This document shows, in pieces, positions 878-27,571 of a stretch of DNA of 49,366 nucleotides (position 1 is its first letter; every line of letters starts with the position of its first letter). Origin of the DNA: Secundilactobacillus angelensis (lineage in GTDB: Bacteria > Bacillota > Bacilli > Lactobacillales > Lactobacillaceae). The stretch is taken from the NCBI RefSeq assembly GCF_012641075.1, contig NZ_JAAXLJ010000018.1:1-49366 (forward strand), given 5' to 3'. Under the pieces are notes generated by a model that was not told the origin of the DNA, searched no databases, and saw only the letters and a list, made by a program, of their open reading frames with translations. Position numbers and translations under genes: made by a program.

Positions 878-1639
878 TTAATAGTAACCATAGTAAGGCG
901 TTTGTACCACTGCTGAAAATACCCAATTAATCAATGTAATGAAGTCAAAAACTGGTAAGCCAACTGCACTTTGAATTGCGGACGCGTAAGGTGGCAAGTC
1001 GCTGCATTCCAACAGAATCGCGCCAATTTCTGGATGATCAGCAATCAAGTTTGTACTGACATTAATGAGTTGCTGGGTTAAACCCGCGTTATCTAAGACG
1101 GGCTCGCCATAGCGAATCGGATGGAATTTGGACAAAGAGCCGACATCCTGAATCACACAATATTCCTTGCTGGCATGGGATTTGTTTAAGAATTCTTCCG
1201 TGGCATTTTCGTAACTTGCTACGAAGACACCGACTTTCTGATCGGTTTTCAGACCAAATTTGATGATGGGCAATTGAGCTAAACTGGACAGGAAGACGGG
1301 AACGTTCACCGCGTTTTTGACTTCATCCTGGAAGTTTGCGAAGTAACCACAGGCGCCAACGATTGCGCGAACACCGCGTTTTTCAAGCTTTTGGGCTGCT
1401 TTGATGACGGTGTCTTTGATCTTTGAATTACCCGTAAATAAATCCTCAATCTCAACATCAATCACTTCGTATTCAACCGGGAAATCGAATGTTGTGGCAT
1501 TCACAACGTTACCGGGAAGCTTAGGATAATTTAAGTTTACGGCAATGATCCCCATTGCGTTACCAGCCACAGGTGTAATTAAGGGTGCCTGTTTCTGGTT
1601 CAATCGTTGGTCGTTATTGAGTACGGCTCGATAATGCAT
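878..1639 (-). CDS. aspartate/glutamate racemase superfamily protein
   Basis: This 253-residue cytosolic protein has the two-cysteine layout of the Asp/Glu racemase superfamily. The first Cys is in a GACGYF context (about residue 97) and the second in LLECSDLPPYA (about residue 211). Such enzymes epimerise amino acids without PLP by using the two thiols as acid and base. The substrate cannot be read from sequence; the superfamily also contains hydantoin racemases and maleate isomerases. It starts 18 bases after the opine-dehydrogenase-like gene, behind GGGAGGTG, and has no promoter of its own, so it belongs to the T-box operon. Its placement suggests that it makes or removes a D-amino acid linked to the dehydrogenase reaction, which is inference. 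Confidence 0.8.
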   Translation of the reverse strand: MHYRAVLNNDQRLNQKQAPLITPVAGNAMGIIAVNLNYPKLPGNVVNATTFDFPVEYEVIDVEIEDLFTGNSKIKDTVIKAAQKLEKRGVRAIVGACGYFANFQDEVKNAVNVPVFLSSLAQLPIIKFGLKTDQKVGVFVASYENATEEFLNKSHASKEYCVIQDVGSLSKFHPIRYGEPVLDNAGLTQQLINVSTNLIADHPEIGAILLECSDLPPYASAIQSAVGLPVFDFITLINWVFSAVVQTPYYGYY

Positions 1640-1657
1640 TGCGACACCTCCCGTATG

Positions 1658-2875
1658 CTAAGCTAAAGCACCAGTATTCAAATAGTCTAACAGTTGTTGT
1701 TTATCAAGTTGACCAATACCAAGTTCGTTGAGGGTCACACCAGTCTTGTAGAAATCTGTCCCAACCATTGCCGAAGCAAGCGTAATCATGCTGTCGATGA
1801 CACGGGTGTCAACGTTGAATTTTTTACCCAGCTCGTGGTAGATGTGGCAGCCGACAGGGACGTCTTCGGTAATGTAGCGGTCGTGGATATCGAATGGACC
1901 AGTACCAATCGCCATTGGATATTGCTCGTCAAACGGTACCGCGGCACCGTCACCCATGTATTCTGGTCCAAGAATGTTTGAACGTGAGAAGAAGACTTCT
2001 TTGTCAAAGTGCGCAACATCGACACCAATCGCATGGGCCAGTTTAACTTCTTCGGAATAAAATGCGTACTGTACTTCTGAAATCGATTCACAATAGGCGT
2101 ATGAGTAAATGGAGTACTTGGATTTATCGTTGCCACCAAACACGCGACCAAAGTTTTCCATGACACCGACGCCGAGTAATGTACCCGGACAGTGGAGAAC
2201 CGGATTAACGTTGCTGAAACCAATGTCTAGAACGGTCTTTCCACTAGCTGGACCGTCACCGAAAGTCACGGAATCAAAACAGCCTAAATGCGCTGAGCTT
2301 TCCAGAAACTTTTCTTGATCGGTTGTGGGTAAGGCAGCACCACGAAGAGAAATTGCACGATAACGGAGTAATACTCGAGTAGTGTCAATACCGGCTTCTT
2401 TAATGATCCGGGTACCGTATGGTGCACTTGACCAGCCACCAACAATCACTTCCTTAGTGCTACCTAATTCACGCATCTTCTTACGCAATTTAAGCGAGCC
2501 GAAGTTATCAGGAATGATATGAATGATCATACCATCTTGTAATAGCGGAACTAACTTTTCAAAGAAGGCATCGTGACCAACGGACGGAATCGCAACGATG
2601 ACAAGGTTGGCACCGTCTAATACTTTTTCAAGATCCGTAGAAACTAAATCGAATTTAGCGGTTCCTGAACGTGTAAAATTGTATTTATTCCACTGCTTGC
2701 CTTCGAGTGTGATACCGGTACGATCAAGGTTCGCAAGTGAAGTCTTGGCAAACTCTGGTAGATCATAGAGGCGTACTTGATTGCCTCCAAGTTTACAGTC
2801 TGCGGCAACTGAGCGGCCGACCGCGCCTGCACCTAAAACGGCAACGACATCATTTGATAAATCATGTTCTGGCAT
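1658..2875 (-). CDS. NAD/NADP octopine/nopaline (opine) dehydrogenase family protein
   Basis: The 405-residue protein opens with a Rossmann motif, AVLGAGAVGRSVA (about residues 12-24). In the C-terminal half NVNPVLHCPGTLL carries the histidine typical of the octopine dehydrogenase domain, and DIHDRYITEDVPVG follows further on. Characterised family members reductively condense an amino acid with a 2-oxo acid using NAD(P)H. The open frame extends upstream to 3046, but that part runs through the T-box. The ATG at 2875 has AAAGGAGATT in front and places the nucleotide-binding fold at the N-terminus, so I use it. First gene of a two-gene operon with the racemase-like gene. The amino-acid substrate is unknown; T-box control points to the amino acid read by the leader. 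Confidence 0.85.
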   Translation of the reverse strand: MPEHDLSNDVVAVLGAGAVGRSVAADCKLGGNQVRLYDLPEFAKTSLANLDRTGITLEGKQWNKYNFTRSGTAKFDLVSTDLEKVLDGANLVIVAIPSVGHDAFFEKLVPLLQDGMIIHIIPDNFGSLKLRKKMRELGSTKEVIVGGWSSAPYGTRIIKEAGIDTTRVLLRYRAISLRGAALPTTDQEKFLESSAHLGCFDSVTFGDGPASGKTVLDIGFSNVNPVLHCPGTLLGVGVMENFGRVFGGNDKSKYSIYSYAYCESISEVQYAFYSEEVKLAHAIGVDVAHFDKEVFFSRSNILGPEYMGDGAAVPFDEQYPMAIGTGPFDIHDRYITEDVPVGCHIYHELGKKFNVDTRVIDSMITLASAMVGTDFYKTGVTLNELGIGQLDKQQLLDYLNTGALA

Positions 2876-2904
2876 TATAAAATCTCCTTTAATCTTTATT
2901 ACAC

Positions 2905-3153
2905 AAAAAATCCCCACAGTCTTAAAGTTAATAAGACTGTGGGGCGAACTAGCCGCGGTACCACCCACATAGGCACTCATATGCAAAATACATACGTCAC
3001 GATAACGAGTGGAAGACGTAACGTGCTCACGAAAGCGCTCACACATTAAACAGCAATACCAAGACCATATTCATCTAGTCTGTGACGTTACATTTCACCA
3101 AATCGTAACTCTCTAAGGGACACTTGCTAGACTACTCATCTTTTGTGTTTCGT
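2905..3153 (-). promoter_or_regulatory. T-box riboswitch upstream of the opine dehydrogenase operon
   Basis: Read leftward, the leader contains the Stem I GATGAGTAG element near its 5' end, an AGAGAG bulge, a GGTG loop motif, and GAATATGG (3072-3065) on the 3' side of Stem I where the specifier lies. The canonical T-box sequence GGGTGGTACCGCGG is at 2966-2953. A terminator follows (CCCCACAGTCTTA/TAAGACTGTGGGG, 2944-2912, then a T run). The antiterminator would form from the T-box and the 5' arm of that terminator. ATG inside GAATATGG (Met) is my preferred specifier; TAT (Tyr) overlaps it and is not excluded without folding. Confidence 0.92.
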
Positions 3154-3160
3154 TGGAGAA

Positions 3161-3189
3161 AGAATAGCATCAACAAAAACGGAAGTCAA
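3161..3189 (-). promoter_or_regulatory. sigma-A promoter of the T-box operon
   Basis: TTGACT (3189-3184) and TATTCT (3166-3161) are spaced by 17 bases just upstream of the T-box leader. Confidence 0.8.
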
Positions 3190-3437: not shown

Positions 3438-3827
3438 TTAACGGTAGTAACTAGTCCCATATCCCTTTTTCAGGTAGGTTGAAAAGACAATATGGTGTTT
3501 CGATACCCACTTAAAATAGCGAGTTTGGTTCTTTTTGGAATAAATTGGTTCATAGCCGACTATCTTGTAGTCATGATGACCAAGGTAACGATAATGGGTG
3601 CGATTCAAAAAGTCTGGATCATTACCGTAACTGTGAGTATAATTCTTGCCATTCTTTAGTTTGAAAGAGACTCTAAAAGCTTTATTATACTTAGTCTTCC
3701 ACGTTCCTTGGAGCGCTTTTGGCATTCCCTTATGCCAAGAAGCTGCTTGCGCCGTGTTCACGGATACACCAGTACCACCAGCTAAGCCAATTCCAACGGC
3801 AAGTGTGGTTATAATCGATTTTTTCAT
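3438..3827 (-). CDS. small secreted protein, WHKG-family paralogue 2
   Basis: The 129-residue protein has a signal peptide (MKKSIITTLAVGIGLAGG, cleavage near NTAQAA) and a mature domain starting SWHKGMPKALQGTW, matching the products at 327 and 7417. The rest is rich in Lys, Tyr and His with no catalytic motif. A longer reading to 3854 exists, but GGGGAGGAC sits just before the ATG at 3827 and the signal peptide begins there. It points opposite to the other two copies and has its own terminator, so the three are dispersed single genes and not a tandem array. Function unknown. Confidence 0.85.
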   Translation of the reverse strand: MKKSIITTLAVGIGLAGGTGVSVNTAQAASWHKGMPKALQGTWKTKYNKAFRVSFKLKNGKNYTHSYGNDPDFLNRTHYRYLGHHDYKIVGYEPIYSKKNQTRYFKWVSKHHIVFSTYLKKGYGTSYYR

Positions 3828-3944
3828 GTAAAGTCCTCCCCTGATACGTTTCATAATACACTTATCAATCTATTAGTAAACGGGTAATATCGTTATTAAT
3901 ATCCCAATAGTAACAATGGTGTCCCAGACGGCAAATTCATTTGA

Positions 3945-6563: not shown

Positions 6564-6865
6564 AACAATTTAACAAATCAATTAGACATAAGATGAGTAG
6601 AGCTGAAAGCTACTTTTAGAGAGCCACGTTGATGGAAAGCGGTAGTAGTTTAAGTTTGAATATGGTCTTAACGACAGTCTTTATCATCGAGCATTAGTTA
6701 GATGATGACGGGTACTCCCGATACAGAGTGAGGGTATTAAAATCATTTTTGTACCCGAAGCGTATGTCATTTGCGTGAATGATGTAAATTGAGGTGGTAC
6801 CATGGAAAAGCACTTTCACCCTTAGTTAGAGATTGAAATCTGATGAGGGAGAAAGTGCTTTTTGT
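6564..6865 (+). promoter_or_regulatory. T-box riboswitch upstream of the methionine sulfoxide reductase gene
   Basis: The leader shows Stem I (AAGATGAGTAG, AGAGAG, GTTG loop) and GAATATGG at 6658-6665 on the 3' side of Stem I, followed by TCTTA that pairs with TAAGA at the base. The T-box GAGGTGGTACCATGG is at 6791-6805. The terminator hairpin is AAGCACTTTC (6808-6817) with GAAAGTGCTT (6851-6860) and then T5. The GAATATGG segment and its flanks match the leader at 2905-3153, so the two probably share a specifier: ATG (Met) is preferred, TAT (Tyr) is the alternative. Confidence 0.92.
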
Positions 6866-6897: not shown

Positions 6898-7350
6898 ATG
6901 GGTAAGAAGCAAGAAAATTACGAGTTATTGGTTGAACAGGCAAAGAGTTTATTGGATGGTGAAACGGATCTTGTGGCTAATATGAGCAATTTAGTCTCGC
7001 TGCTATTCCACGAAATACCAAATTTAAATGGCACGACTTATTACCGATTCAAGAATAATGAGTTAATTCTAGGGCCCTTCCAAGGTAAGCCTGCTTGTAT
7101 GCACATTCCAGTTGGAAAAGGAGTTTGCGGAACCGTTGCTCAAACCAAGCGGACGGAGATCGTTGAAAATATTCACAATTTTGCTGGTCACATTGCTTGC
7201 GATAGTGCGTCGAAATCAGAAATTGTCGTACCGGTGTTTAAGGATGATCAGTTTTGGGGTGTTTTGGACTTAGACAGTCCTGAATACAGTACGTTTGATG
7301 AAACGGATGGCGAGTATCTTAGTCAGATTGCACCACTGATTTTTAATTAA
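6898..7350 (+). CDS. msrC: free L-methionine (R)-S-oxide reductase (GAF-domain fRMsr)
   Basis: The 150-residue protein is a single GAF domain with the fRMsr signature: LGPFQGKPACMHIPVGKGVCG gives Cys67 and Cys77, and HIACDSASKSEIVVP gives Cys101. The family reduces free methionine-R-sulfoxide to methionine through a cysteine thiol/disulfide cycle recharged by thioredoxin. The start is fixed by AAGGAGGAATGAATTATG. It is the only gene behind the T-box leader ending at 6865. A methionine-recycling enzyme under a T-box supports methionine as the sensed amino acid. Confidence 0.88.
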   Translation: MGKKQENYELLVEQAKSLLDGETDLVANMSNLVSLLFHEIPNLNGTTYYRFKNNELILGPFQGKPACMHIPVGKGVCGTVAQTKRTEIVENIHNFAGHIACDSASKSEIVVPVFKDDQFWGVLDLDSPEYSTFDETDGEYLSQIAPLIFN

Positions 7351-7416: not shown

Positions 7417-7824
7417 ATGAAAAAATGGTTTTTAGGGATTGTAACAGCTTTAGCACTCGTGTTTGGTGTATCAGCCACGACAACCGCCAATGCGTCTAGT
7501 TGGCATAAGGGGACACCATCAAGTTTGAGAGGAACTTATTTTTACAAATATCATGATGGTGTTCGGGGCACGGATATCTATAAGATTACTAAATCCAGCG
7601 TCTACTATACGCCAACTGGCGCACCGACCTCGAAGACAACTGGTATAAAGTATGAAAAAGTCGGCAAATATTATCGAATCAAGGGGACTACGCATGCCTA
7701 TGGGCGAAAGTTTGGTTATGATGAGGTTTTCTATAAGAAAGGGCACAGTATGAAGGCGCTTGGCTATAGTCAATACAAGCATGGTGGCTTTAGTAAAGAC
7801 CACTATATTTTCTATAAGCAGTAG
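7417..7824 (+). CDS. small secreted protein, WHKG-family paralogue 3
   Basis: The 135-residue protein has a signal peptide (MKKWFLGIVTALALVFG, cleavage near TANASS) and a mature part starting SWHKGTPSSLRGTY, as in the products at 327 and 3438. The remainder is Tyr-, Lys- and Gly-rich with alternating short hydrophobic stretches, suggesting a small beta-structure. No catalytic residues can be named. It starts 66 bases after msrC behind AAGGGGAG and ends at its own terminator; read-through from the T-box unit is possible because I see no terminator between them. Confidence 0.85.
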   Translation: MKKWFLGIVTALALVFGVSATTTANASSWHKGTPSSLRGTYFYKYHDGVRGTDIYKITKSSVYYTPTGAPTSKTTGIKYEKVGKYYRIKGTTHAYGRKFGYDEVFYKKGHSMKALGYSQYKHGGFSKDHYIFYKQ

Positions 7825-27360: not shown

Positions 27361-27502
27361 GGTTTCTCCGGTCGATCAGTATCGTTAACGTTGCAAAAGC
27401 AATCATCAACGATAATGCGTCAAAAACTGACACAGTCTGAATCTTTCGTAGATTTTGTAAATCATAGGCATCATCTACTTTCGTATTGACGCCACCACCC
27501 AT
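27353..27502 (-). CDS. putative holin-like type I toxin
   Basis: The 49-residue ORF has a charged N-terminal 20 residues, one hydrophobic helix (SVFDALSLMIAFATLTILI, about residues 25-43) and a basic tail DRRNRK. The F-[DE]-A-L-x-L-M-I-x-F pattern is typical of Gram-positive holin-like toxins of the TxpA/BsrG group. The ATG at 27502 lacks a strong Shine-Dalgarno; an internal GTG before SVFDAL is an alternative start. It has a consensus promoter upstream, a hairpin in its 5' leader (ACAGCATATC/GATATACTGT) and a convergent antisense RNA. Expected to act at the membrane. Confidence 0.7.
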   Translation of the reverse strand: MGGGVNTKVDDAYDLQNLRKIQTVSVFDALSLMIAFATLTILIDRRNRK

Positions 27503-27571
27503 GAAACTCTTTGCCCTAACAGTATATCATAAGATATGCTGTTTTTTATTTGTCTAAAATTATGGCGACAG

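Follow-up and report, generated by a model that had tools for sequence, protein, structure and literature searches.

Which amino acid controls an operon that pairs an opine-type dehydrogenase with a racemase, and what could such an operon do for a lactic acid bacterium? The operon in question lies in a 49,366-nucleotide stretch of DNA from Secundilactobacillus angelensis (Lactobacillaceae; contig NZ_JAAXLJ010000018.1, positions 1 to 49,366), which was analysed as a whole and is called the window here. An earlier note, made from the sequence of the window alone, had described a promoter, a T-box leader and a terminator ahead of two genes, and had suggested amino acid control of opine chemistry. 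We find, on the minus strand, a promoter-like site, a T-box leader, a terminator, an opine-dehydrogenase-family gene and a racemase-family gene, in that order and with 18 bases between the two genes (Table 1). As judged from its sequence, the leader is a methionine T-box, and we predict that it responds to the charging of tRNA-Met. The operon likely has a methionine-supplying role. More tentatively, we propose that it is a salvage operon, induced by methionine starvation, that would release methionine from an N-(carboxyalkyl)methionine.

The T-box leader and its specifier

Because the leader scores below the Rfam gathering score of RF00230 (93), a scan of the whole window at gathering score misses it. 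Its assignment as a T-box is firm because of the GGGTGGTACCGCGG motif and five homologous leaders, of which four score 96-118 bits against RF00230 and one (L033) scores 65.3. The RF00230 match, this motif and the terminator's hairpin bear out the earlier description of a leader, T-box sequence and terminator before a two-gene operon. The promoter fared less well. A consensus-like site is present, but the operon region has four promoter-like sites, compared with 2.2 (standard deviation 1.4) in shuffles, and this makes the site weak evidence.

The amino acid had been narrowed to methionine or tyrosine. We aligned six leaders of orthologous operons (the window's own, L037, L102, L033, L034 and L067), which come from five Lactobacillaceae genomes and one Enterococcus megaplasmid. 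The specifier-loop strand GAA-N-ATG-G is invariant in all six, while the overlapping frame that would specify tyrosine varies (TAT, GAT, GAT, GAT, AAT and AAT), and we therefore rejected tyrosine. In the same genome, the leader of tyrS (L010; its gene product matches TIGR00234 at 412.7 bits) has GAA-T-TAC-A at the equivalent offset. TAC is likewise carried by the leaders L106 and L107, each of which precedes a transporter of the NhaC family. Tyrosine T-boxes are present for the NhaC family in the available part of Wels et al. (PMC2494555). The control by an amino acid that the note proposed can now be fixed as methionine. The note's proposed route to the specifier, folding of Stem I, was uninformative for the window, as the canonical stem is absent from its single-sequence minimum-energy fold (z 0.39), and it is the comparison of six leaders that gives AUG. 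Single-sequence Stem I folds of L102 and L033 place a base helix directly after the AUG. At the other end of the tRNA, four tRNA genes of the genome with a CAT anticodon (elongator, initiator and Ile2 pooled) all have, by reading, an A after the acceptor stem, and this discriminator A pairs with the U of the leader's UGGU.

The leader also belongs to a set. At E up to 0.001, 41 T-boxes are matched in the genome. The operon leader ranks 30th among them by score, and GAA-N-ATG-G occurs at the specifier position in 6 of the 41, the operon leader (L030) included. The other five precede metE-metF (L015), two MetN/MetQ-type ABC systems (L012 and L029), a GAF protein in the window (L027), and an operon of a D-2-hydroxyacid dehydrogenase, a cystine-type ABC transporter and an M20 amidohydrolase (L004; locus L119, G000:C1:180500-186500), which is perhaps another operon for salvage of a methionine derivative. 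The genes behind these five would fit a programme for methionine acquisition from several sources. By eye, two more leaders have GAA-N-ATG-A; one (L013) precedes a gene like those of cystathionine lyases/synthases, the other (L026) that of an amino acid permease.

Methionine T-boxes described in lactobacilli (metE-metF, yxjH, metQ and metNP, in the parts available of PMC6004538 and PMC2494555) share the RNA family, the ATG specifier and the bacterial family with the operon leader. However, they precede genes of methionine synthesis or transport, whereas the operon leader precedes opine-type enzymes; the main texts of these two papers contain no word starting with "opine" or "racemase". Wels et al. 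report that specifier and gene function agreed for the tRNA ligases, as they did in all other cases that had been verified (PMC2494555). In an RNA-seq study of L. paracasei, similarly available in part, genes with Met/Cys T-boxes shifted between methionine- and cysteine-deficient media, except metQ1 and metQ2 (PMC6004538). Methionine control of the operon is well supported by these sequence comparisons, and we hold this prediction with high confidence.

Table 1. Features of the operon and of the second methionine T-box in the window
Feature	Positions	Strand	Evidence or remark
Promoter-like TTGACT-17-TATTCT, extended -10 (TG ahead of second hexamer)	3161..3189	-	Consensus match only
T-box leader RF00230, Stem I to T-box	2937..3152	-	Covariance model 68.5 bits, E 1.1e-14
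Predicted specifier AUG (Met) in loop GAA-U-AUG-G	3066..3068	-	GAANATGG invariant in 6/6 leaders
T-box motif GGGTGGTACCGCGG	2953..2966	-	UGGU at 2963-2960 able to pair with A73-CCA tRNA end
Intrinsic terminator hairpin and T run	2905..2944	-	Hairpin 2944-2912, 13 pairs, fold z -4.9
Opine (octopine/nopaline) dehydrogenase-family protein, 405 aa	1658..2875	-	PF02317
Two-cysteine Asp/Glu/hydantoin racemase-family protein (PRK07475), 253 aa, Cys97 and Cys212	878..1639	-	PF01177, NF005679
Second Met T-box (GAATATGG)	6576..6826	+	70.2 bits; same predicted regulon, separate transcription unit
GAF-domain protein behind second Met T-box	6898..7350	+	Pfam GAF; no NCBIfam match at E 1e-20

The gene pair, its distribution and further links to methionine

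The dehydrogenase scores 96.9 bits against PF02317 (cut-off 30; E 1.5e-27), which agrees with the family named in the earlier note. Its best solved relative is CENDH, the N-(1-D-carboxyethyl)-L-norvaline dehydrogenase of Arthrobacter sp. 1C (1bg6; profile E 4.2e-28). The CENDH residues N198, H202, R292, Y293 and D297 correspond to N224, H228, R333, Y334 and D338, and all five active-site residues are identical in 17 of 17 sequences (the window's included, one partial). We take H202 and D297 of CENDH (here, H228 and D338) to be the catalytic pair. CENDH is not known to be controlled by methionine or to have a racemase as partner. In the available part of a review, N198, R292 and Y293 are named among positions of the CENDH active-site cleft, and the enzyme is reported to prefer (S)-methionine (PMC6033044); a His-Asp relay is stated for the octopine dehydrogenase OcDH (PMC2924402). 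The Arthrobacter enzyme acts reversibly on N2-(1-D-carboxyethyl)-L-methionine, a compound that was subsequently discovered in crown galls and is called methiopine, according to the accessible part of another article (PMC4575208). The likeness to CENDH consists, then, of the best profile match among solved structures, five identical active-site residues and a reported preference for L-methionine, and the family match and these residues argue for the opine-type chemistry that had been suggested.

The racemase matches PF01177 (34.6 bits, cut-off 31; E 2.1e-8) and, more specifically, NCBIfam NF005679/PRK07475 (251.7 bits, cut-off 231), so its earlier description as a two-cysteine Asp/Glu-racemase-like enzyme holds. 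Cys97 and Cys212 are kept in 12 of 12 sequences, the window's included. A usable structure model (pLDDT 72.5) matches arylmalonate decarboxylase, aspartate racemase and hydantoin racemase in Foldseek, with a best E of 2.7e-8. The aspartate, hydantoin and allantoin racemases and arylmalonate decarboxylase of PF01177 resemble the operon racemase in fold and in the two conserved cysteines, of which arylmalonate decarboxylase has one; identity to the listed solved members is 11-18%.

The dehydrogenase is rare. It was found in 5 of 301 genomes sampled from the family, 3 of 395 from the order and 11 of 398 from the phylum, and, by genus, in 4 of 50 and 1 of 13 genomes of two other genera and in 1 of 15 of the window's own genus; these samples overlap, and the window's own genome is counted among the family, order, phylum and own-genus matches. 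Two megaplasmid records of Enterococcus raffinosus also carry it, at 70% identity. We examined nine Lactobacillales loci (the window, L037, L102, L055, L056, L057, L067, L038 and L058). The earlier note had suggested a search for conserved neighbours in other lactobacilli. The racemase gene directly follows the dehydrogenase gene in all nine loci, and a T-box is detected in six; the exceptions are two streptococci and a broken copy in genome G005. By eye, the flanking genes are common to L037 and L102 and to L055 and L057, and are different elsewhere. Because the leader stays with the genes while the flanks change, it seems that leader and genes are transferred together, as one regulated cassette. 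In the G005 copy (L057/L035, G005:C10), the dehydrogenase gene is in two fragments adjoining an open racemase frame, and its leader (L035) has no T-box match at E 0.01, which suggests that the switch degenerates along with the gene. A tree of the dehydrogenases puts the eight Lactobacillales sequences into a single group (100/100), within which the five Lactobacillaceae sequences are nested (100/99).

Two further observations connect the gene pair to methionine independently of the T-box. Upstream of the pair in Streptococcus plurextorum there is no T-box match at E 0.01. A box resembling that of the methionine regulator CmhR, TATAGCTAGAAACTATA, ends 78 nt upstream of the dehydrogenase's start codon (ATG), with two mismatches to the consensus TATAGTTTSAAACTATA given in the available part of PMC5359408. 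It is the sole match in 13,176 bases; shuffling the whole S. plurextorum locus gives 0.04 matches expected, and 8 of 200 shuffles have one anywhere. In addition, the third gene in two of the nine Lactobacillales loci (L056, from G244, and L067, from E. raffinosus) encodes a lipoprotein of the MetQ/NlpA family (PF03180, E 1.4e-70 and 7e-82, respectively). Both lipoproteins score below the NCBIfam MetQ/NlpA cut-offs, as do two MetQ-like proteins behind other methionine T-boxes of the S. angelensis genome.

In the second streptococcus (G392), a MarR-family gene, a ProV-like ATPase gene and a permease-OpuAC fusion adjoin the gene pair (L058, 3627-6341). These ABC genes, of the quaternary-amine type, resemble those of the ergothioneine transporter EgtUV, and they may be unrelated neighbours of the pair.

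Proposed function and its alternatives

In the mechanism we propose, uncharged tRNA-Met would bind the leader, through the AUG specifier and through pairing of UGGU with the A73-CCA end, and would block the terminator, such that both genes are transcribed. The substrate would be an imported N-(carboxyalkyl)methionine, for which methiopine is a natural example. The dehydrogenase, using NAD(P)+, would oxidise this substrate to an imine, which would break into methionine and a 2-oxo acid (pyruvate), and the racemase might turn a wrong stereoisomer (D-methionine or an epimeric opine) into a usable form. Opine cleavage is our best guess for the operon's reaction, although a guarded one; the substrate, the oxidative direction and the role of the racemase are what we infer. 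The earlier note had left it open whether the route makes or breaks an N-(carboxyalkyl) amino acid. The logic of starvation, together with the other genes behind methionine T-boxes, would favour breaking an N-substituted methionine over making one.

It is important to emphasize that several observations weigh against this proposal. CENDH is only a distant relative of the dehydrogenase, and an AlphaFold model made from four sequences is poor (pLDDT 54), so the active site is not assessable in it. At residue 263, all 8 Lactobacillales sequences have Glu, whereas 8 of the 9 from other Bacillota have Pro, and substrates may therefore differ between the two groups. The G392 streptococcus has no T-box at E 0.001 and no MET-box even when three mismatches are allowed, which counts against a strict rule of methionine control, and a MetQ-type gene is, by eye, unlinked in seven of the nine Lactobacillales loci. 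The remaining points come from nine loci outside Lactobacillales, where orthologues have 55-62% identity (one is partial; Dethiosulfatibacter aminovorans is among the organisms). Eight of these loci (all but L066) were scanned, and none has a T-box or SAM riboswitch at gathering score. Seven (L039, L060, L061, L062, L063, L065 and L066) contain MttB-family methyltransferases (PF06253); none was seen in L059.

This MttB association is the basis for the alternative that we consider the most serious, even if it is unlikely, namely that the clade consists of dehydrogenases of N-alkyl (e.g., N-methyl) amino acids. Such enzymes would oxidise secondary amines resulting from the demethylation of quaternary amines, supplied by MttB in other Bacillota, and in lactobacilli would act on a methionine with an N-alkyl group other than carboxyalkyl, freeing methionine itself or the corresponding 2-oxo acid. 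Other neighbours agree with this idea, each confirmed by profile in a single locus: a B12-binding protein (L061), a pterin-binding methyltransferase (L062), BCCT and proline-racemase families (L060) and the ornithine-cyclodeaminase family (L059). A pyrrolysine mttB element (PYLIS_3, 41.3 bits) lies near the orthologue in L064 (6758-6855, minus strand), and the active-site residues are common to both groups. The MttB, corrinoid-protein and BCCT neighbours suggest that enzymes of this clade might have other N-alkyl amino acids as substrates. However, by eye and judging from the starts of open reading frames only, no MttB or corrinoid gene was seen in the Lactobacillales loci, and the conserved Arg333 could bind a second carboxylate; an arginine sensor is described for OcDH (PMC2924402). 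It also counts against an N-alkyl substrate that N-methylated methionine is not known to be a common nutrient. PRK07475-like racemases occur in two of the nine other-Bacillota stretches, some of which end at contig ends. As a separate observation, L062 (G941:C1:988500-1006000) contains the opine dehydrogenase, two MttB, two PRK07475-like racemases and a BCCT-like transporter (by eye), together with the pterin-binding methyltransferase and a profile-confirmed ketopantoate hydroxymethyltransferase-family gene; this cluster looks like an undescribed quaternary-amine pathway.

The chemistry could also run in the opposite direction, with condensation of an amino acid and a 2-oxo acid to a product that methionine shortage makes necessary, as a redox valve, an osmolyte or a signal. 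Opine dehydrogenases are indeed reversible, and several work reductively, according to the available part of the review (PMC6033044). However, consuming methionine during methionine starvation would contradict the logic of the T-box, given the agreement of specifier and function reported in the accessible part of Wels et al. (PMC2494555), and we regard synthesis as improbable. We are about as sceptical of salvage of D-methionine or of a hydroxy-analogue of methionine, in which the substrate of the dehydrogenase would be not an opine but a 2-hydroxy acid or imine. The pairing of racemase and dehydrogenase in all nine Lactobacillales loci fits this idea, as does the D-2-hydroxyacid dehydrogenase gene in a separate methionine T-box operon of the genome, but PF02317 membership and the five CENDH active-site residues point to C-N chemistry, and a D-methionine racemase alone should need no dehydrogenase. 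Finally, the earlier note had drawn a likeness to opine metallophore pathways. As in the staphylopine cnt pathway, a racemase adjoins an opine dehydrogenase, but the likeness ends there. The note's statement that no nicotianamine-synthase-like gene is present holds for the whole genome, in which the CntL-type family PF03059 has no match, while in the control genome set it is matched in Methanosarcina. The dehydrogenase scores 14.3 bits against the CntM-type, staphylopine-dehydrogenase family PF10100, under its cut-off of 25. The racemase belongs to PF01177, whereas the structure of CntK closely resembles that of HisR, a protein with the annotation diaminopimelate epimerase DapF (PMC11602996). 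Moreover, the staphylopine pathway spends S-adenosylmethionine (PMC7438024), which would be odd under methionine starvation. Failing on both tested features, CntL and CntM, the metallophore reading was rejected, and we consider it very improbable.

The proposed release of methionine from an opine also has a counterpart outside these bacteria. The opine catabolism of Agrobacterium is under opine-responsive control, where the operon is predicted to be under control by amino acid starvation. Catabolism of methiopine- and octopine-type compounds encoded on Ti plasmids also frees an amino acid from an N-carboxyethyl derivative, but it does so with a flavin-containing opine dehydrogenase, in contrast to the NAD(P)-type enzyme here (PMC4575208, as far as the article was available). 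None of the three components (T-box, dehydrogenase family and racemase family) is new by itself. Among open-licence PMC texts, judged largely from listings, neither their union nor the implied pathway was found, and the union and its use for methionine opines look undescribed to that extent. To our knowledge, the roles of opine enzymes outside Agrobacterium and marine invertebrates are largely open. Because a T-box names the amino acid to which it answers, the leader allows a substrate to be predicted for an orphan opine dehydrogenase and its racemase. Such a prediction is rare, and it can be tested directly. A broader possibility, to which we give somewhat less credence than to the salvage proposal itself, is that the mobile cassette of methionine T-box, opine dehydrogenase, two-cysteine racemase and, sometimes, MetQ represents a new pathway for methionine-opine salvage that has come under methionine control twice, by an RNA switch in lactobacilli and the enterococcus and by a CmhR-type box in the streptococcus. 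If so, methionine opines would be a real nutrient in the niches of these bacteria. The operon suggests, more generally, that N-carboxyalkyl amino acids may be nutrients for lactic acid bacteria.

Other features of the window

The GAF-domain protein behind the second methionine T-box is probably a free methionine-(R)-sulfoxide reductase. Three small secreted proteins are encoded at 327-752, 3438-3854 and 7417-7824, flanking the operon and the second T-box. By eye they are paralogue-like, each with a signal peptide followed by a similar WHKG-type start, and the two that were tested have no Pfam match. It is possible that these paralogue-like genes mark a site of recombination. At some distance, the window contains an Rfam match to the Listeria sRNA rli28 (RF01492) at 27363-27536 on the minus strand, with 58.7 bits against a cut-off of 45.

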